DNA from: Ignavibacteriales bacterium
GTDB lineage: Bacteria > Bacteroidota > Ignavibacteria > Ignavibacteriales > Ignavibacteriaceae
Direction: 5' to 3'
Length of the DNA stretch: 64,000 nucleotides
Assembly (NCBI GenBank): GCA_020061465.1
Contig: JAGUYG010000004.1
Coordinates: 1 to 64,000 of the forward strand
A program made the position numbers and the translations under genes. Numbering within the stretch: the first letter of the stretch is position 1; each line of letters begins with the position of its first letter. The notes beneath the pieces were generated by a model. It ran no database searches and had not been told where the DNA came from. It saw only the letters and a program-made list of their open reading frames with translations. Below are positions 22,140 through 31,570 of this stretch, in pieces.

Positions 22140-24248
22140 TCAGCGGAGCAGCATCATTTTTCTATTTGCGGTGAATGTTCCTGCCTGAATTTTATAAATG
22201 TAAAACCCGCTTGCTAAACCGGGTGCATCTCCAAGGGATCCGGCGGAAAATTCAACCTCGTAAACTCCGGGTGCTTTTGGTTCATCAACAAGTGTTGCAA
22301 CCTGACGACCGAGCACATCGAATACCTTCAATACTGTATTAACTGTATTAGTTCCCTCATTTGACATTTGACCTTTGACCTCTGACGCAATCGTGAATCT
22401 AATTTTAGTGGCAGGGTTAAAAGGATTAGGATAATTTTGGTAAAGAACAAATTCGGTCGGGGCAATGTTTTTAATGTTTGCATCAATGAATGACCTCGTC
22501 CCGATTAATAACTTATAATTATTATGTTTTATGTGGGCAGGCATTTTTACCTGTGCATTCGCTGAAAGCTTAACGGCATTATTCAATCGTTCATCAAATA
22601 AGAACATTAAGTAATTTTGATCCAAATTTTTCCGTTCAACTTCAAGCGTTACATCTTGATCTGATATATTTTTAAACTCAAGATTATATGTCTGTCCCTC
22701 TCCTATTTCTGAGCGGGATTCTTTCATTAAATATTTATAATCGGTTGAGAGATGCTCGTTCCGGATAACTATTCTTGCCTCCTCAAAATCCCCCGGCGGA
22801 GCGAAATAGTCGCCAATATCGTAATCATCCGACGACTTGGGATTATAGCCAATAAACACTTTTGATTTTTCTTCGCCATCTAAATTAAGTGAAAACTTAA
22901 TATCGTTCTCACCCGATATTTGAATTTGATCTTCACCTGTTGATTTACCCAAAGTGCCATTCGGATCGTAAGGAATTTTCAGCGAAGTTAAGCCGCCGGT
23001 ATTATTGAAGTAATAACCTTTATATGGGAAAAAAGTTTGCACAGTATTCCATGTTCCGTCCCAATCATAGATAACGGTATTCACGCCTAAACCATTTGCA
23101 TTTCGTACATCCAGCCAGCTTGTACTTCTTTCAAACGGATTGGAGATAATATTCCACCCTGAATGCAGCGAGATTGAATAAGTATTATCTCCTGCCAAAT
23201 TCACGGTACTGACTTGCATGTTAACATTCACGGCATTTTTACTAAGCATCCAAAATCCGTTGCCGGGTTTGAACGCAAAGGTAGTTGAGCCATCATATTC
23301 TAACAAATAATTTTCGGCAGCACCATTATCATAATACACATTCCAATCTTGCTTTTGAGTTCCGGCTCCACTAACAACTTGCGAGACAGCATAATTAATA
23401 GATCCCGGCAGCCCTATCATTCTGTAATTTGATTGGGCAAGTCCGGCGAATGAAAAAGTTTTGTTAATGGAAAATGTAGTTGGATAGCTCGAACCGGAAG
23501 TAAATTTCTTTAATACAATATCATCTATAACCGCACCGCGGTACGTTCTTCCGTAGTTACTCTCATCGCTTTTAAATAAGAATGCAATATAAATTCCAGA
23601 CTTTCCGGTAAGGTTGCCTATAACCGGTACATTTTTCAAATCGAAGTTTTCGCTTATCCATTGAAATGTGGAGCTTGAATCGCTTTTAACAGTTCCATAA
23701 AAATAGATACCGTCCGAAGAGGCTAACCATCTTAATGTATCGTAAACCACTTCACAATCCAGAAAATAAATGAATTCTAGTACGGCATCTGAAGCATCGG
23801 ACAAATCGAATGGACCGTAAATCATCCATGTTCTCATATAATCAGGATATCCCGCACTCCATGTGCTTGATTCTGTACCGCCTGCGGCACAGTAACCCGC
23901 ATAGTGTATATTATCGCTTAGCAGGATTTTATCCCAATAAGCATCCGTATAGCCGTCCGCTGCATAAACATCCCATTCGTTTGGAAAGGTTCCCTCAAAA
24001 TCTTCCGTCTTAATATTTACCCAACCCTCCGGCGAAGCTATTGAGTTCCTGCTTTTAGAATCCGCATGTTCAATTGTTTTATTCGATTCAGAAGAAAAGC
24101 TTACTTTCACCAATCCCTTTTTGTCAAACACCTCGTAAATAATTTTATTTTCTTCCTGAGCGGATTTTTTTGTGTCTGATTGAGAATAAATCTGCAAGCT
24201 CAAAACCATCGTGAGAAAAGTAAGAAATTGTAAAACTATATTTTTCAT
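22140..24248 (-). CDS. Secreted protein with type IX secretion sorting domain
   Basis: 702 aa from the ATG at 24248, chosen because AAAGGAA precedes it and it begins a signal peptide (MKNIVLQFLTFLTMVL, cut near YSQS); the frame is open 24 codons further. Residues 35-245 resemble a MAM/jelly-roll adhesion module (FEGTFPNEWDVYAADGYTDA, WMIYGPFDLS). A middle beta-rich region follows, and the last 90 residues are a T9SS type A sorting domain (YQNYPNPFNPATKIRFTI, DVLGRQVATLVDE, ASGFYIYKIQAG, KMMLLR). It should be exported and anchored or released at the cell surface. It is the last gene of the minus-strand CHASE2-caspase operon, 61 bases after the caspase gene, and could be a partner or substrate of those peptidases. 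Confidence 0.88.
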   Translation of the reverse strand: MKNIVLQFLTFLTMVLSLQIYSQSDTKKSAQEENKIIYEVFDKKGLVKVSFSSESNKTIEHADSKSRNSIASPEGWVNIKTEDFEGTFPNEWDVYAADGYTDAYWDKILLSDNIHYAGYCAAGGTESSTWSAGYPDYMRTWMIYGPFDLSDASDAVLEFIYFLDCEVVYDTLRWLASSDGIYFYGTVKSDSSSTFQWISENFDLKNVPVIGNLTGKSGIYIAFLFKSDESNYGRTYRGAVIDDIVLKKFTSGSSYPTTFSINKTFSFAGLAQSNYRMIGLPGSINYAVSQVVSGAGTQKQDWNVYYDNGAAENYLLEYDGSTTFAFKPGNGFWMLSKNAVNVNMQVSTVNLAGDNTYSISLHSGWNIISNPFERSTSWLDVRNANGLGVNTVIYDWDGTWNTVQTFFPYKGYYFNNTGGLTSLKIPYDPNGTLGKSTGEDQIQISGENDIKFSLNLDGEEKSKVFIGYNPKSSDDYDIGDYFAPPGDFEEARIVIRNEHLSTDYKYLMKESRSEIGEGQTYNLEFKNISDQDVTLEVERKNLDQNYLMFLFDERLNNAVKLSANAQVKMPAHIKHNNYKLLIGTRSFIDANIKNIAPTEFVLYQNYPNPFNPATKIRFTIASEVKGQMSNEGTNTVNTVLKVFDVLGRQVATLVDEPKAPGVYEVEFSAGSLGDAPGLASGFYIYKIQAGTFTANRKMMLLR

Positions 24249-24309
24249 TTTCAAATTCCTTTTATGGTATTGTATTCTATAGAAATAACTCCAGCCCTTA
24301 TCTCTAATC

Positions 24310-25764
24310 TTAATCTTCATCTCTTTTTATAAAAATAAACTGCCCGCCTTCGTCATTGGCATCTCTTATAACCTGCAGCATCGGCGTTTGCTCTGAGTTA
24401 TTCGTTACGGCAACTCTAAACTCATTAAAAAGCTGACCGGCATCAAAATATTTTTTGTCGTTTTCTCTTAACGCTTTAATTAAATAATAAGTAAATATAG
24501 AATGATCGTCTCTTCCCGCATCGCTTACCTCCTCAACTCCACCTGAAGTTAGAGCTAAGCGGGATTGTTTTCGATATACTTCGCGATAGTATTTTTCCAT
24601 ATCGTTAGGATCAAATTTTATACTTTCGGTTCTTGAGCCTCTAAAAATGTCACCAGCAAAGCATGCATCGGTAATAAGTAAAGTATGTTTTGCCGGTATT
24701 CCGCTGACGAAAGTTTTAACATCATTGTTGGAAATGTAGTCCGCAACGGAATTTGTTTTTGCATCAACCGGGACCCAGTAACCTCTATTCAAGGCTTTGT
24801 TAAATTGACCGTGACCTGCATAAAAAATTAGCACGTTATCATCTTTAGTGGTATTCTCCGCAAGCCACTCGAATTTTTGGATGATATTTCTTCTCGTTGC
24901 TTCTTCGTCGAGAAGAGAGATAACTTCGTCAAAATGATAATCGCTGCGAAGAATACTCGCAACGCCTTCGGCATCATTCATTGCATTTCTTAATGGACGC
25001 CAATATCCATCGTAAGAATTTATTCCGATGACTAATGCAATATACCTGCCGGCAGTAATTACGTCTTCAAGCTTTCTTGTAATATAGAATGTATCTATTG
25101 TCGAATTGAATTTATTATCCACTGCTTTTATAATTACCGGATTATCGCCCACATGCAAAAATAAGCTTACATTAAACTCATTGTTTACCGAAAGTTTTGC
25201 CTTCTGATTGTTAACATAAACTTCTAATACGCCTGCCGGGTCAGTTGCAATACCTCTAATATTTGTCAGCTCGGTTTTTCGAACGACTTTAATTCCGCGC
25301 TGAACCTGCGGTTCGATTATAGTAATTTGCGGTCCGGTTTCGTCGAGGTCTGTAATAACATTAAATTGTATTTCAGATGAAACGTCTTTGAGGTTTGTTG
25401 CTTTTACAACTAAAACATTCATTCCGCTTTTAAGTTGCACGTTGGAGAAGAATAGATTATCCTGCAGCAATATTGCTTCATTACCATTAACCGTTATCAA
25501 TTTAATACCGGCAGCATCAAAAGCTTTTCCGCGCACGGTAAGAGCACTCTCCTTATGCTTTATCTCATTTGTCGGGGGGAGTACCGGATCCATTATTGTT
25601 ATTTGTGGACCGGTTTCAATTTTCTCGGTCGGCGGTGTAACAATTTCCTTTTTAGGCTCTTCTTTTTTCGGTATCAGTCTTCCCGGTTTTGTTGATCCGC
25701 TTATTTGAGCCAACAAAATTTGGGAGAAAAGTAAGAAAGCTAAAATTACCATTACCTTCTTCAT
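24310..25764 (-). CDS. Exported caspase-fold (C14) peptidase with two Ig-like modules
   Basis: 484 aa. A signal peptide (ending near LLAQ, residue 20) is followed by a Lys/Pro/Glu-rich linker, two bacterial Ig-like modules (about 50-135 and 143-230), and a caspase domain at 238-480. The His/Cys dyad is intact: H318 in FYAGHGQ and C368 in ITDACFAG. Clan CD enzymes of this kind usually cut after Lys/Arg or Asp; specificity here is unknown, though acidic residues at 365-380 would be compatible with basic P1. It is 20 bases from the preceding gene in the operon. Its export is notable because most bacterial caspase homologues described are cytoplasmic or lipid-anchored. Confidence 0.92.
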   Translation of the reverse strand: MKKVMVILAFLLFSQILLAQISGSTKPGRLIPKKEEPKKEIVTPPTEKIETGPQITIMDPVLPPTNEIKHKESALTVRGKAFDAAGIKLITVNGNEAILLQDNLFFSNVQLKSGMNVLVVKATNLKDVSSEIQFNVITDLDETGPQITIIEPQVQRGIKVVRKTELTNIRGIATDPAGVLEVYVNNQKAKLSVNNEFNVSLFLHVGDNPVIIKAVDNKFNSTIDTFYITRKLEDVITAGRYIALVIGINSYDGYWRPLRNAMNDAEGVASILRSDYHFDEVISLLDEEATRRNIIQKFEWLAENTTKDDNVLIFYAGHGQFNKALNRGYWVPVDAKTNSVADYISNNDVKTFVSGIPAKHTLLITDACFAGDIFRGSRTESIKFDPNDMEKYYREVYRKQSRLALTSGGVEEVSDAGRDDHSIFTYYLIKALRENDKKYFDAGQLFNEFRVAVTNNSEQTPMLQVIRDANDEGGQFIFIKRDED

Positions 25765-25784
25765 GTTGTTTCTCCGTTTAAAAA

Positions 25785-26282
25785 TTATGGTCTGTTCGGC
25801 GGAGTTGGAAAGCTGCTTACCGGCGGCGTGGATGAATCACTGCTGCTCTTTTTACCCAATACGAGAACAGCCGCCGTACCGCCAACTAAAGCGGCACCGC
25901 CGACAAACACATACCAGGGGACTCCGCCCCCTTCTACTATTTCTTTGGCAGTTACATCAAAATAAAAATCTTCACCGTCAAGCATCGCTTCTTCATCGGG
26001 AAGTAACGTCCAAACGATTCTGCATTTTTTATTTGCAAAATTTCCGGTTCCGATGTCTCCGCTTAAATCCTCCGGAACTAAGTTAAATCGAGAATCGCTT
26101 GTCCGCTTTAACACAATTCCGATTTCATATTCTTTGGCGTAGTCGCCTTTAAACTCATAGTAAATAAAAATTTTACCTTCAGAATAATCGAAGTTGGCTT
26201 GAATTTTTTCTTGTGCGGTTATCGCTCTGCTTAAAATCAGAACCGTAAAGCAGAACAAAATTTTAAATGAAATTTTCGTCAT
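25785..26282 (-). CDS. Small exported protein with C-terminal membrane anchor
   Basis: 165 aa. It has a signal peptide (LFCFTVLILSRAITAQ), a beta-rich domain (KIQANFDYSEGKIFIYYEF, YEIGIVLKR), and near residues 120-145 a glycine/alanine-rich hydrophobic helix (WYVFVGGAALVGGTAAVLVL) followed by a Ser/Pro tail. It is probably anchored in the inner membrane with the domain in the periplasm. I do not recognise the family. It lies between the papain-like and caspase-like peptidase genes (24 and 20-base gaps), so it is likely part of their complex, perhaps a scaffold or adaptor; that is inference only. Confidence 0.8.
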   Translation of the reverse strand: MTKISFKILFCFTVLILSRAITAQEKIQANFDYSEGKIFIYYEFKGDYAKEYEIGIVLKRTSDSRFNLVPEDLSGDIGTGNFANKKCRIVWTLLPDEEAMLDGEDFYFDVTAKEIVEGGGVPWYVFVGGAALVGGTAAVLVLGKKSSSDSSTPPVSSFPTPPNRP

Positions 26283-26306
26283 TTTTAATCTCCGAATATT
26301 TTAGAA

Positions 26307-27671
26307 TCATTCTAAGTGATTTATTTCTATTAAAATTGGTACGACTGATTTTCCTTTGCTGCGCGCCTTGAAACTAATTACATCGGATGATTGGAAATCA
26401 ATGTTTGCTTGATCAACTGTTTTATTGCCTAAAACTTTTATAAGACGTTCCCAAAACGTTCCTTCTTCCGATTCAACTTTCATCATAATATCTTTTAGAT
26501 CGAGACTCTCCTTTGAATAAAGAAAACAATAGTAAGAAACTCCCGATGTTTCATCCAACATGTTGTAGCTTTCTTCATCGGGAATTGCAACATTGTTTTG
26601 CCGGTAAGGAAGATAAGCGATCATTCTCTCGTCTAACGGAAATATTTGATACGTTTTGAATGTCAAGTCTGAACTGAATGCATAAACATAAGCCGGTTCG
26701 TTGTTTGAAATTCGCAGTTCGAAAAGAGTTCCGGCGTGATACGGATTTTTCATAGAAAAGTATTGACCGTTGAAAGTAACTTCCATTGCATCGCCATTGC
26801 TTTCGCGAAATTGCAAAGTGCCCGAAAGGTCCGGAATCTCCGGGTCGGGTTGAGATTTATCTATCATCTCAAAGGCATACTTACAGAAGAAATCGAAATC
26901 AGAGTAGCGAATCCATACAAAGCCATCTTTTCCCCAATAAGATCCCCAGCTATTTATAAGTTCAAACGATCCATCAAACTTTTTATCATCATAACCTATT
27001 ACTGTCATCCCATGACCTCTGCCCCAATTTTTATAATCGCCTTCTTGCGGCGTCCACACCTCTTCGGAATAACTGAATGAAGGCGGGCAATCGAAGGCTA
27101 TCACAATAGGTCTGCCTTCCGCTAAGCTTTTCTTAACGTACTTGGTTTTTTCAACCGTTCTTGCGGATGCAATTTCCCTGTATTCAATAATGCGGTAATT
27201 AATTGCCCTTAACTTATCCGAATCGGTTACTTCCCGTTCGCATTCATAACCGAATTCATCTAACTTTGCTGCGCCTTGGTCTCTAACAACATCTAATGCA
27301 TCAACAAGCGATGTTCCGGCATCGCAGCCCTTAACCATTCTTATTTGATTATAGACATACGAAGGGGAGAATGAATTTTCATCGATTATGTCTCCCAACC
27401 AATCATTTCGGATTGCTTCTAAAATTGTTCTTCCGGCATAAGCAGTTGCCCATCCCGCGCATGTTCCATAAGGTCCCTGGCTTTTTGGTGTAGGCGCATA
27501 TTTTTTAAGTGAAGCCGATGAAGGAAGATCGGCATAATCGCCGCGCATGAGGATTGCAGCAGTAGGACTATTTGCATATAGACTATCGTCCAGCAATAAA
27601 CCCATTCCGAATTCCTGCGGGTAAATATTAATGAGTAATAAAAAGAATATGATGGATAATTTGTTTATCAT
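26307..27671 (-). CDS. Exported papain-fold (C1) peptidase with DUF4384-like tail
   Basis: 454 aa with a signal peptide (IIFFLLLINIYPQ). The C1A catalytic set is complete: oxyanion Q65 and nucleophile C71 in SQGPYGTCAGWA, H220 in GRGHGMTVIGY, N240 in INSWGSYWG. Residues 280-454 form a beta-rich domain resembling DUF4384 (AYVYAFSSDLTFKTYQIFP, then proline-rich and VAIPDEESY), often found with surface or signalling proteins. No long pro-region is evident. It should be a periplasmic or surface cysteine peptidase. It lies 7 bases after the FecR-like gene and 24 before the small anchored protein, in the middle of the operon. Confidence 0.9.
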   Translation of the reverse strand: MINKLSIIFFLLLINIYPQEFGMGLLLDDSLYANSPTAAILMRGDYADLPSSASLKKYAPTPKSQGPYGTCAGWATAYAGRTILEAIRNDWLGDIIDENSFSPSYVYNQIRMVKGCDAGTSLVDALDVVRDQGAAKLDEFGYECEREVTDSDKLRAINYRIIEYREIASARTVEKTKYVKKSLAEGRPIVIAFDCPPSFSYSEEVWTPQEGDYKNWGRGHGMTVIGYDDKKFDGSFELINSWGSYWGKDGFVWIRYSDFDFFCKYAFEMIDKSQPDPEIPDLSGTLQFRESNGDAMEVTFNGQYFSMKNPYHAGTLFELRISNNEPAYVYAFSSDLTFKTYQIFPLDERMIAYLPYRQNNVAIPDEESYNMLDETSGVSYYCFLYSKESLDLKDIMMKVESEEGTFWERLIKVLGNKTVDQANIDFQSSDVISFKARSKGKSVVPILIEINHLE

Positions 27672-27678
27672 AGTTTAC

Positions 27679-28632
27679 TCACTGTTCTTTGTTATTATCT
27701 TGCAATAATTCGGCGGTTCTTACAAATAACTTGTTCTTGAGTAAAAATTTTGCGAACAGTTTTTTGTATTCCTCCGATTGAGGCGCCAACACATGTACTC
27801 TTTCAAATTGTTCTAAAGCGTAATTGTTTAAATCATTGTTTTCATAAAAGCCTGCAAGCGCTAATAAATTAAATGGAGTTATATTCGGTCCCATTTCATC
27901 ATTTATCAATTTTAAAGTATCTATTATCGAATATTTAATTTCATCCGAAAGAAAAATAACTGTGTTTGTATCGGATGTTACTTGAGAATTATTTTTATCC
28001 GCAATGAACCACTTATAAGCTATATCTTTACTCAGATTGAGTGATGAAGAATTTAATGTATAGATAGTATCGTTCACTAAATCCATATATATCAATGCGC
28101 CGTCACTATTCAATATACTTAATACATATTGCGCTGACTGCGGATAACTGTACCAGGAAAGCTTGATCGCCGAATCCATTATTTTAGTGAAGGCTGGTAT
28201 GGCACATTCTATATGATTGGGTTTTACTCTAACAACCGCCGCAATTGTTTTCATCTCCTTCTTTACGGATTTATCTTTAATAATTTCCTGAGCAACAAAG
28301 TTCGCAAATTTTTGTGTGACTGACTTTTTTGTTTCATTGATATTTCTCTCAAGTTCTGGAATATCAAAAGTTCCTTCGCTTAGAAGCTCCATTGTCCTGC
28401 CGTCTTTGTACATCAAGGCAGTGTAGCTGTTTTTATCCAAACGGATTCTGTAATTCCGGTTTAAGCTTTCGCCTATATGAATCTGATGCCAATTTTGAGA
28501 AGGAAGCGTACATCCATAAACCTTGCCGGAATACGTTAAGATTTTAAATAATTCTTGCTGTGCTAACGCTGTTATGCTAAATAAAAAAACAAGTACAATT
28601 AGTAGAAATATTTTTAAACGCTCATTATTCAT
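27679..28632 (-). CDS. FecR-like exported protein
   Basis: 317 aa with a signal peptide or N-terminal membrane anchor (FLLIVLVFLFSITALAQ). Residues 25-95 have a FecR-like beta pattern (LTYSGKVYG, IHIGESLNRNYRIRLDKNSY, MELLSEGTFDIP). The middle is beta-rich (a possible Ig-like fold near 140-215), and the last 80 residues are helical, TPR-like (LLALAGFYENNDLNNYALEQ). FecR-type domains usually pass or modulate envelope signals; pairs of CHASE2 and FecR genes are a known arrangement. Twelve bases separate it from the CHASE2 gene upstream. Role in the operon is inferred. Confidence 0.75.
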   Translation of the reverse strand: MNNERLKIFLLIVLVFLFSITALAQQELFKILTYSGKVYGCTLPSQNWHQIHIGESLNRNYRIRLDKNSYTALMYKDGRTMELLSEGTFDIPELERNINETKKSVTQKFANFVAQEIIKDKSVKKEMKTIAAVVRVKPNHIECAIPAFTKIMDSAIKLSWYSYPQSAQYVLSILNSDGALIYMDLVNDTIYTLNSSSLNLSKDIAYKWFIADKNNSQVTSDTNTVIFLSDEIKYSIIDTLKLINDEMGPNITPFNLLALAGFYENNDLNNYALEQFERVHVLAPQSEEYKKLFAKFLLKNKLFVRTAELLQDNNKEQ

Positions 28633-28643
28633 TGCGGTCTGAT

Positions 28644-29828
28644 TTAATTTTCCAATGATGGAAATATTTTGCTTACAAAGTTTTGATAGAGTTCTAAGGC
28701 TGTTGCAGTAAGAACTATAACCGCAAGAGCCAATGTTAAATTTATTTTATAATTGAAGTGATGATAAATCATTACTCCGGCGAATAGATTAATTAAAGTT
28801 ATCAGCAATATGTAAATTTTAGTTAAAGCTCCGAACCAATCCTTATAATTGCTCTTCAGATTGTGAATTATAAAGGCACTGACATAGCTAAGAATAAACG
28901 CAAACACGATGCTCATCCATGTGGGCATATTGTCAACATAATTTTTTCTGAGTATCATCGAAAGGATGTTTGCGTGAATAACAACCCCGTACATATCCGG
29001 GAAAGATTTACCGGCATACCTTTCATTCAACGGAGTAAAATAAATATCCTCAAGAGTTTTATTGTTTAGATCTGTTCCCATAAAACCTATCAGCACTATT
29101 TTATTTCTTAAGAATTCAAGATTCTCTTCGCCCGATAAAACCTGATCGGCATCGAGGTAATAGAATCTGTTAAAATTGCCTGTATAATTTATTTTTTCAA
29201 TTCCTTTCTGCCGGTTCATCAAGTACCGGTAAGCATCGGTATCATATATTTCAACAACCTTTGAAGCCAAAGCAGGAATAATGGATCCGTTTACTTTTGA
29301 TAACGGTCTAAAATCTCTTATGGTTTTAAAGCTCACCTTATCATCATTCGGAAGGTTCGCAAAACCGTTTGTAGAATATTTACTGAAAAGACTTAATGAG
29401 GTTATAAGTGTATCATAGGTATCATTCGTTTCATCAAATTTATCCAATTTACTTACCAGCACTAAATTATTGCATTTGGAAAAAGCGTCTGCTAAAACGG
29501 AATCGCAGAAGCTTTCTTTTTCTTCCTGAAAAATTGCATCGATTGCTATTAAATAAGGATTATAAGAATTTATAACATTTATTTGATGAGCTATTTCCAG
29601 CCGTGAGAGATTGCCAATATTAACAAGAACGATGCTGGTATCTGCGGCAGGTTCTTCTCTAATTTTTGAGTAAACAATATCATAAACATCAAAATCGCTG
29701 ATAGCTTTTGCAACCGGATCGAGGAAAAGACAATTGAAAGGTATGAGCGACAATATTCCGATTAAAAGGAACATCATCAATGTTACTATTAAATATCTTA
29801 TGTGGTAGAAACTTTTCATACCTCTCAT
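28644..29828 (-). CDS. CHASE2-domain membrane sensor without output domain
   Basis: 394 aa. One membrane segment near residues 12-32, then a large extracytoplasmic CHASE2 domain (SIVLVNIGNLSRLEIAHQIN, LIAIDAIFQ, KIVLIGFMG, DMYGVVIHANILSMIL), then three membrane helices to the end. CHASE2 normally senses an unknown extracellular signal and drives a fused cyclase, kinase or phosphodiesterase; here nothing follows the last helix, so the signal must go to partner proteins. It is the first gene of the six-gene operon. A second possible start is the ATG three codons in (29819). Confidence in CHASE2 is high; partners are inferred from position. Confidence 0.9.
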   Translation of the reverse strand: MRGMKSFYHIRYLIVTLMMFLLIGILSLIPFNCLFLDPVAKAISDFDVYDIVYSKIREEPAADTSIVLVNIGNLSRLEIAHQINVINSYNPYLIAIDAIFQEEKESFCDSVLADAFSKCNNLVLVSKLDKFDETNDTYDTLITSLSLFSKYSTNGFANLPNDDKVSFKTIRDFRPLSKVNGSIIPALASKVVEIYDTDAYRYLMNRQKGIEKINYTGNFNRFYYLDADQVLSGEENLEFLRNKIVLIGFMGTDLNNKTLEDIYFTPLNERYAGKSFPDMYGVVIHANILSMILRKNYVDNMPTWMSIVFAFILSYVSAFIIHNLKSNYKDWFGALTKIYILLITLINLFAGVMIYHHFNYKINLTLALAVIVLTATALELYQNFVSKIFPSLEN

Positions 29829-30446: not shown

Positions 30447-30827
30447 TTCCATTGATTTTGCGCTCATCCCCCTCAGTAGTTGTATTTTATTTGTTTCTTG
30501 GCGAACCCCTTATCTTCTCCCCTTCCGGGAAGGGGAGAACGATACTCTTTAAAAGAAAAAGTAATACCGGAAGTTGTAAGAAAATCGGGAAATGTCATTT
30601 CGCCTGCCTGCACAAAGCTTCGTAATAGGCAGGCAAAATATCTTTAATGATCTCATGCATTCATGCACCCTACCGCTCCTTATTTCATTTAGTAATATCA
30701 ATTGAAAATAAAATTTTTCATTACGTATAACTTTCAACCTTTTCCATTTGATGAACTTGCCTTAACTTTGCAGAGGCGATTGATTGATTTATCTTACAAA
30801 AATCAGAAACTTACTTTAAGGAAACCG

Positions 30828-31172
30828 ATGAAAACTATTGACAAGATCGAATTAAACTCAAATCAGAAGAAGGCTCTTAACGAGCTCAATAAAAAACTTA
30901 AATCAAATTTTGATATTGTTGAGACCATCATTTTCGGTTCTGCAGCTAGGGGAGAAATGGATAGTGAATCGGATTTAGATCTGCTGATAGTTACCGCTAA
31001 AATTCTCGATAGAACAACGCGGCATCAAATTACCGACATTGTTTGCGAAATTAATTTAAAATACGATACTAACCTTTCGACGTTGGTTGTAGATAAAAAA
31101 TCCTGGGAAGAAGGCATATACTCGATACTGCCAATTCATGATGAAATACTTAAAGAAGGTGTTTTGTTATGA
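30828..31172 (+). CDS. MNT-type nucleotidyltransferase (antitoxin of MNT/HEPN pair)
   Basis: 114 aa from the ATG at 30828, preceded by AAGGAA; the longer open frame to 30702 lacks a site. The minimal nucleotidyltransferase motif GSAARGEMDSESDLDLLIV is complete (G37, S38, D49, D51). In MNT/HEPN systems this enzyme AMPylates or otherwise modifies the HEPN RNase to silence it. It overlaps the HEPN gene by 4 bases (ATGA), so the two are translated together. The pair is intact, in contrast to remnants of the same kind at 34183-34533. Confidence 0.88.
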   Translation: MKTIDKIELNSNQKKALNELNKKLKSNFDIVETIIFGSAARGEMDSESDLDLLIVTAKILDRTTRHQITDIVCEINLKYDTNLSTLVVDKKSWEEGIYSILPIHDEILKEGVLL

Positions 31173-31570
31173 ATATTTCCGAAAACCATTCACAAGTTGT
31201 ACGCTATTGGTGGAACAAAGCAGAACACAGTATTGAATCCGCACAGCGTGAGCTTGATGCCGGGGAACTCAGTTATGCAATGAATCGTATTTACTATTCT
31301 GTATTTTATGCGGTAAGTGCAGCTTTATTGGAACGCGGTTTAAGTTTCAAAAGGCATTCAGGTGTACGGCACACTTTTCATCGTGAATTTATTAAATCGG
31401 GTTTGATCGAATCAGAATGGGCTAAGTTTTATGATCGCTTATTCGAAGATCGTCAAGAAGGCGATTATATGGCATTAATTACTTTTGAGCGGGAATATGT
31501 CGAGAAGCAACTGATTAAAGGTAGAGAATTTCTTGAACAAATTCGTCCTTTTATAAATTCGCTCAAATAG
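31169..31570 (+). CDS. HEPN-domain protein (putative RNase toxin)
   Basis: 133 aa, all-helical. It has the HEPN pattern AEHSIESAQRELDAGELSYA then MNRIYYSVFYAVSAALLE, and RHSGVRHTFHREFI near the middle, followed by a long C-terminal helix. HEPN partners of MNT enzymes are RNases or RNA-binding toxins. The canonical RxxxxH is not unmistakable; RHTFH is the candidate. Length and coupling to the MNT gene fit a toxin-antitoxin system. Intact. Confidence 0.85.
   Translation: MNISENHSQVVRYWWNKAEHSIESAQRELDAGELSYAMNRIYYSVFYAVSAALLERGLSFKRHSGVRHTFHREFIKSGLIESEWAKFYDRLFEDRQEGDYMALITFEREYVEKQLIKGREFLEQIRPFINSLK

Follow-up and report, generated by a model that had tools for sequence, protein, structure and literature searches.

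CHASE2 cyclases and kinases with FecR or MtxA partners are already known, as are bacterial caspases and one cyanobacterial fusion of a caspase to CHASE2. In magnetotactic bacteria mtxA is followed by the gene of a CHASE2-adenylate cyclase (PMC4439547), Burkholderia encodes a FecR-LysM protein together with a CHASE2 histidine kinase (PMC5192318), and the CHASE2 cyclases of Sinorhizobium work with the outer-membrane barrel NsrA and signal inward (PMC13001267). A metacaspase-CHASE2 fusion occurs in Trichodesmium (PMC3501461, PMC2853523), and a review on cyanobacteria depicts a caspase-CHASE2 fusion as a death receptor (PMC7475262). Here we analyse a six-gene operon in which a CHASE2 protein is encoded together with a secreted MtxA-like protein, an exported papain-fold peptidase of family C1, a small membrane-anchored protein, an exported caspase-fold peptidase of family C14 and a cargo of the type IX secretion system (T9SS). 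The operon lies in the first 64,000 nucleotides of contig JAGUYG010000004.1 (the window) from an Ignavibacteriales bacterium (assembly GCA_020061465.1; 4.2 Mb in 122 contigs). A preliminary description of the window had taken the operon for a sensor-led cassette with two exported cysteine peptidases that is not known as a described system. No description was found in the literature searched: papers joining CHASE2, FecR and caspase, CHASE2 and CHAT, or T9SS sorting and caspases did not come up, which is weak evidence, as subscription literature lay mostly outside the search.

The operon is real and conserved, and the linkage of its genes is near certain. The order CHASE2, MtxA-like, C1, small protein, caspase, cargo is found in seven relatives from three families of Ignavibacteria (L031, L032, L035, L036, L040, L041 and L042; the cargo gene of L031 is cut by a contig end, and L032 has one inserted gene). 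Another locus (L047) keeps the first five genes, and the run C1, small protein, caspase is kept in several further relatives, so that a neighbourhood conserved in no relative, which would have refuted the preliminary reading, is not what is observed. The operon-type CHASE2 family occupies 21 places in 146 relatives; 15 of them are beside a gene for an exported clan-CD peptidase (caspase, CsgG-caspase or TPR-CHAT) and one is beside C1 at a contig end. Three loci (L174, L175, L176) show the order TPR-CHAT, CHASE2, FECR, and one combines CHASE2-FECR with a CsgG-caspase. CHASE2 and C1 co-occur in the relatives (Fisher 9e-12, uncorrected for phylogeny), and C1 lies near a CHASE2 protein also in L051 and L054, the former with CHASE2 fused to a SpoIIE-type phosphatase, a cytoplasmic output. 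Chance clustering of unrelated envelope genes might be read from the flanking genes, some of which differ between loci, but the content is conserved in several lineages with rearranged order, and in the host genome, with its single C14 gene (that of the operon caspase) and just two CHASE2 genes, the former lies beside one of the latter. (The other CHASE2 gene, L206, looks by eye like a fusion with a sigma-54-type regulator.) We consider chance clustering hardly credible, and it is excluded because the neighbourhoods are conserved.

Caspases with a CsgG/LpoB-like N-terminal domain adjoin or lie near CHASE2-FECR in L034, L039 and L168, the CsgG part of L039 being recognised by alignment only. 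In L169, L171 and L172 a TonB/outer-membrane barrel gene precedes CHASE2 (barrel domain tested in L169 only), with FECR after CHASE2 in L169 and L171; the arrangement is reminiscent of NsrA, the Sinorhizobium barrel that feeds CHASE2 cyclases.

The association reappears outside Ignavibacteria. A pattern scan of GTDB species genomes, confirmed by tblastn, gave 438 relatives of C1, of which the best 80 were kept; among these 80 most are from Bacteroidota, with additions from Thiotrichaceae and Sulfurovum. A caspase-cluster gene lies near C1 in 35 loci, mostly among the roughly 60 non-ignavibacterial loci examined. In Sphingobacteriales and relatives (Pedobacter, Solitalea, Sediminibacterium and a 'Flavihumibacter') the genes run C1, caspases, output-less CHASE2, FecR-like secreted protein, with 1, 2, 3, 4 or about 10 caspase copies. 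A strong CHASE2 orthologue is present in 6 of 250 Sphingobacteriales genomes, and in each of the six C1 shares its contig, at a distance of 2-21 kb. Variant arrangements include caspase, CHASE2, FecR-like without C1 (L219), CHASE2 and FecR-like adjoining an oppositely oriented WD40-like caspase (L218), and, in the f30 lineage, C1, lipoprotein-like, FECR, CHASE2 (L195). Mapping the CHASE2 label onto the C1 tree takes six changes, at least three of them on strongly supported branches, and hence the association of CHASE2 with C1 has been made or lost repeatedly, in different gene orders. What is upheld of the preliminary reading is the cassette itself, which is conserved, contains the sensor and encodes two cysteine peptidases that are exported; the tie between sensor and protease recurs with different gene orders and protease types.

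The survey also returned C1 genes in other settings. C1 is followed by a DUF6272-SiaC protein and an ion-channel-like protein in L094, L103, L108 and L112 (domains tested in L094 only), and the neighbourhoods of L094, L103 and L112 carry a polyphosphate kinase-type protein as well, a different signalling context for the same peptidase. Outside Bacteroidota, homologues were seen in Thiotrichaceae (L088, L092, L104, L118) and Sulfurovum (L087); nesting of the Thiotrichaceae sequences inside the Bacteroidota tree suggests horizontal transfer.

The CHASE2 protein of the operon gives a domain match above the cut-off (Pfam 2.9e-24, 86.4 bits against 26.3) and has one N-terminal and three C-terminal hydrophobic segments. 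As described earlier, it has no output domain, since the reading frame stops about 14 residues past the last transmembrane segment, and no second Pfam domain is found. All 11 homologues in one set (A5) end soon after the third C-terminal segment, and no cytoplasmic domain is present in the 11 + 5 + 1 homologues examined. The magnetotactic CHASE2 protein, by contrast, carries a cytoplasmic cyclase, the Sinorhizobium proteins have a cytoplasmic cAMP output (PMC13001267), and the output of the Burkholderia BiofilmReg operon is a histidine kinase with a response regulator and without peptidases, whereas exported proteases are linked to the output-less protein here. The other five operon proteins begin with N-terminal hydrophobic leaders followed by Gln (YP/QEFG, LA/QISG, TA/QEKI, LA/QQEL and YS/QSDT, the slash marking the junction), confirming signal peptides on all but the CHASE2 protein. 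Gln after the leader is the 'Q-rule' of Bacteroidetes signal-peptidase-I substrates (PMC10653852), and these leaders place the five proteins on the sensor's side of the membrane.

The second protein had been labelled FecR-like, a label that finds no support: none of 15 homologues matches Pfam FecR at E 0.1, nor does any of five Sphingobacteriales counterparts, and the alignment between these two groups is weak (57% probability, E 1e-4) and lies in part over the leader. In its AlphaFold model (pLDDT 84) a beta domain is followed by an immunoglobulin (Ig) domain and then by TPR-like helices; among PDB structures, the C-terminal domain of MtxA (4z29) matches best (E 5e-8; VIA Z 13.5 over 161 residues, next structure 9.5). 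The protein has the traits of MtxA-type proteins in being secreted, in its Ig-like and TPR C-terminal architecture and in the position of its gene beside CHASE2, and it matches MtxA in length, in the order of beta region, Ig and TPR, and nearly in domain borders (25-110, 142-226 and 227-313 in MtxA; Table 1) (PMC4439547). Sequence identity is only ~10%, and homology rests on fold and gene context; as modelled, the protein is MtxA-like rather than demonstrably FecR. In BiofilmReg, too, a periplasmic FecR-type protein is encoded alongside a CHASE2 receptor (PMC5192318). Given the MtxA fold and the pairing of mtxA with a CHASE2 cyclase and of FecR with CHASE2 in Burkholderia, the CHASE2 and MtxA-like proteins represent a known sensor unit, here with a different output.

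Both peptidases retain complete catalytic residues, in agreement with the preliminary description: C71/H220/N240 do not vary among 24 homologues of C1, nor do H318/C368 among 25 of the caspase. The C1 protein matches Pfam Peptidase_C1 (1.4e-12), has the Cys-His-Asn triad and finds cathepsin-type structures in the PDB; the DUF4384 match of its tail is below threshold (4.3e-4, 20.8 bits against 27). In the short region between leader and mature enzyme, 80 of 92 homologues have Arg at the column of Arg43 or the next, which nominates Arg43 as a putative activation site. The caspase matches Peptidase_C14 (3.5e-28) and bears two Glucodextran_B Ig-like modules. It has the residues of orthocaspases and metacaspases, a His-Cys dyad and acidic residues where metacaspases owe to them their preference for a basic P1: H318, C368, D264 and D366 are invariant in homologues and align to metacaspase positions in PDB matches. 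From metacaspase structures we take D264 and D366 to form the S1 pocket. Orthocaspases cleave after basic residues (PMC6426788); the operon caspase is predicted to cut after Arg or Lys. Self-processing at an Arg that is conserved between the Ig modules and the caspase domain is not claimed, as this Arg may belong to an Ig strand: the Ig-only proteins L177 and L178 end at the same TRK/TRR.

Caspases naturally raise the thought of a regulated cell death or conflict device, in which an outside signal would trigger exported caspases to damage the envelope of the cell itself or of a neighbour. Tandem caspases in up to about 10 copies, the death-receptor drawing of the caspase-CHASE2 fusion (PMC7475262) and the match of the operon caspase to a PADLOC model can be cited in its favour. 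That model, however, is the generic caspase model, there is no further PADLOC match among the six operon proteins and no mobile context was seen; moreover, these caspases are exported rather than cytoplasmic, and the operon caspase is linked to a surface-cargo pair. We regard such a device as very improbable, and the candidate of an anti-phage defence system was rejected on the PADLOC result. The Trichodesmium fusion resembles the operon in joining a caspase fold to a CHASE2 receptor, but it is a single fused protein known from a single sequence, with the caspase predicted to be cytoplasmic and without C1, an MtxA-like partner or a T9SS cargo. The longest tandem array, of about ten exported-caspase genes between C1 and CHASE2, was observed in one genome (L188 and L207; G255 C96 325500-359000).

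The small protein had been regarded as an adaptor, but it follows the T9SS cargo more closely than it does the sensor. In 24 of 32 places the 'mid' domain of the cargo (~334 residues) is no more than 16 kb from the gene of the small protein, in most of them at 0.3-5 kb, and the exceptions are mostly contig ends or short contigs; on this ground a role as partner or anchor of the cargo is likelier for the small protein than one as adaptor of CHASE2. It consists of a leader, an Ig-like domain, one transmembrane segment and the tail FPxPPxRP. Its AlphaFold model is confident for about residues 30-115 only, and when PDB structures were compared with this fold, Z did not exceed 6.4 and E did not fall below 0.001. 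Relatives of the small protein occur without C1, and one variant joins the Ig domain to an FGE-sulfatase domain. The Ig-TM-PPxRP module (TM, transmembrane segment) was also seen as the C-terminus of large exported proteins in L185 2-6568 (at least 2188 aa) and L187 4884-6770 (628 aa). PPxRP as a genome-wide C-terminal sorting tag was rejected in the host genome, where there is a single match with a TAA stop. The cargo tail scores just under the curated cut-offs (TIGR04183 9e-5, 22.4 against 23 bits; Por_Secre_tail 2.5e-4, 21.7 against 27 bits), and its homologue in L035 has a sorting-domain match above the cut-off. A match to SprA_N (1e-45) indicates that the host genome has a T9SS.

The close company of cargo and small protein could also belong to a T9SS-linked maturation system, in which the caspase, which shares clan CD with gingipains and PorU, and C1 process or release the cargo at the surface, the small protein serves as inner-membrane anchor and the sensor does no more than tune expression or secretion. 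The linkage in 24 places, SprA in the genome and the constancy of the mid domain in cargo proteins of 619 to more than 4500 aa would fit such a function. In L182-L184 and L186, however, cargo and small protein are found with no caspase, and in Sphingobacteriales the C1-caspase pair is found without cargo and small protein, and we find maturation of this kind improbable as the explanation of the whole. Because the small protein tracks the cargo and C1-caspase pairs exist without CHASE2, the operon is better seen as joining three modules.

We propose that the locus specifies a module of sensor and proteases in the envelope, a CHASE2-MtxA receptor in which exported proteases, the caspase and the papain-fold peptidase, have taken the place of the cytoplasmic enzyme; we give this proposal an even chance. 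That the receptor controls the proteases is suggested by their linkage, the missing output domain and the location on one side of the membrane, and is likewise about evenly balanced; the direction of the signal and the substrates are what we infer. The CHASE2-MtxA pairing, which elsewhere controls a cytoplasmic cyclase or kinase, would have lost this output and become coupled to proteases on its own membrane side. CHASE2 and the MtxA-like protein would sense a ligand or the state of the envelope, and sensing would license the caspase, with its Ig modules and the partner's Ig and TPR domains as possible docking surfaces. Speculatively, the caspase would then mature C1 by cleavage after Arg43. 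In Ignavibacteria the proteases may act on or with the surface pair of T9SS cargo and small membrane-anchored partner.

Several observations weigh against this proposal. Five of the 21 ignavibacterial CHASE2 places are without a peptidase, three having an outer-membrane barrel and two nothing recognised; C1-caspase pairs without CHASE2 occur in many Bacteroidota, such as Mucilaginibacter; no caspase was detected beside C1 in L195; and CHASE2 could still signal inward via an unlinked partner. The Arg site of C1 does not track the presence of the caspase once phylogeny is considered (p 0.026 uncorrected, no signal in independent pairs), and a correlation of the two was discarded. To call the cassette 'sensor-led' is too strong, given the CHASE2-free pairs and the five peptidase-free places. 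Such observations would suit two independent units in one operon: a C1-caspase pair that works without the sensor, to mature envelope proteins or control their quality, and a receptor of CHASE2 and the MtxA-like protein that signals inward via an unlinked cytoplasmic partner, the two being placed together as a common regulon and not for direct control. The wide spread of C1-caspase pairs without CHASE2, the existence of CHASE2-FECR without a peptidase and the inward signalling of CHASE2 cyclases of studied function (PMC13001267) speak for two units. The uniform lack of a cytoplasmic domain among the CHASE2 homologues speaks against them, as does the linkage to exported clan-CD peptidases, which recurs in separate lineages with different peptidase types; we hold this arrangement to be somewhat unlikely, though the strongest of the alternatives.

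The coordinates of the operon are collected in Table 1. The six minus-strand reading frames agree in position with those first given, and so do the intergenic gaps of 7-61 bases (11, 7, 24, 20 and 61). The 61-base gap presumes that the cargo starts at the internal Met25 (24248) and not at the longest-frame start (24320), which overlaps the caspase gene; the Met25 start removes the overlap and yields a proper leader. A promoter and terminator scan of the operon gave nothing useful, promoter-like sites being at chance level, and no RNA or tRNA elements were found within the window. Just upstream of the operon (30756-31570, plus strand), NTP_transf_2 and HEPN genes overlap by a few bases and resemble an MNT-HEPN toxin-antitoxin pair.

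Table 1. Features of the CHASE2-peptidase operon, in positions of the window (TM, transmembrane segment; aa, amino acids)
Feature	Position	Strand	Details	Basis
CHASE2 membrane protein without output domain, 394 aa	28644..29828	-	TM 13-31, CHASE2 66-316, TM 303-321, 338-356, 362-380	Pfam, hydropathy
Secreted MtxA-like ('FecR-like') protein, 317 aa	27679..28632	-	Signal peptide, beta domain 29-90, Ig/Fn3 148-227, TPR-like helices 230-311	AlphaFold, PDB match
Exported C1 papain-fold peptidase, 454 aa	26307..27671	-	DUF4384-like tail	Pfam, invariant triad, cathepsin-type PDB matches
Arg43 of C1, in LM-R-GDY	27543..27545	-	Candidate activation site before predicted mature N-terminus	Homologue alignment; putative function
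Small protein, 165 aa	25785..26282	-	Signal peptide, Ig-like domain, TM 125-143	17 homologues (A2), AlphaFold, hydropathy
Conserved C-terminal tail of small protein	25788..25811	-	FPTPPNRP	P161/P162/R164 nearly invariant in A2
Exported caspase-fold (C14) peptidase	24310..25764	-	Two Ig-like modules; His318/Cys368, Asp264/Asp366	Pfam, alignment, PDB matches
T9SS cargo, 702 aa from likely start	22140..24248	-		Por_Secre_tail/TIGR04183 slightly below threshold; SprA in genome
Cargo 'mid' domain, ~334 aa	22470..23471	-	Constant part, linked to small protein	Gene linkage across relatives

A wider generalisation would be a class of receptors in which a CHASE2-MtxA sensor directly switches extracytoplasmic proteases (caspase, CHAT or papain), in a cascade that never enters the cytoplasm and in which the caspase activates a papain-like zymogen at a conserved Arg. 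We consider so general a class unlikely, if worth stating. Few ligands of CHASE2 and few triggers of bacterial caspases are known. As the conserved locus is present in isolates of Pedobacter and Solitalea, the two questions, of the CHASE2 ligand and of the caspase trigger, would become testable in one system, and the locus would be a bacterial case of an outside signal turned into outside proteolysis.

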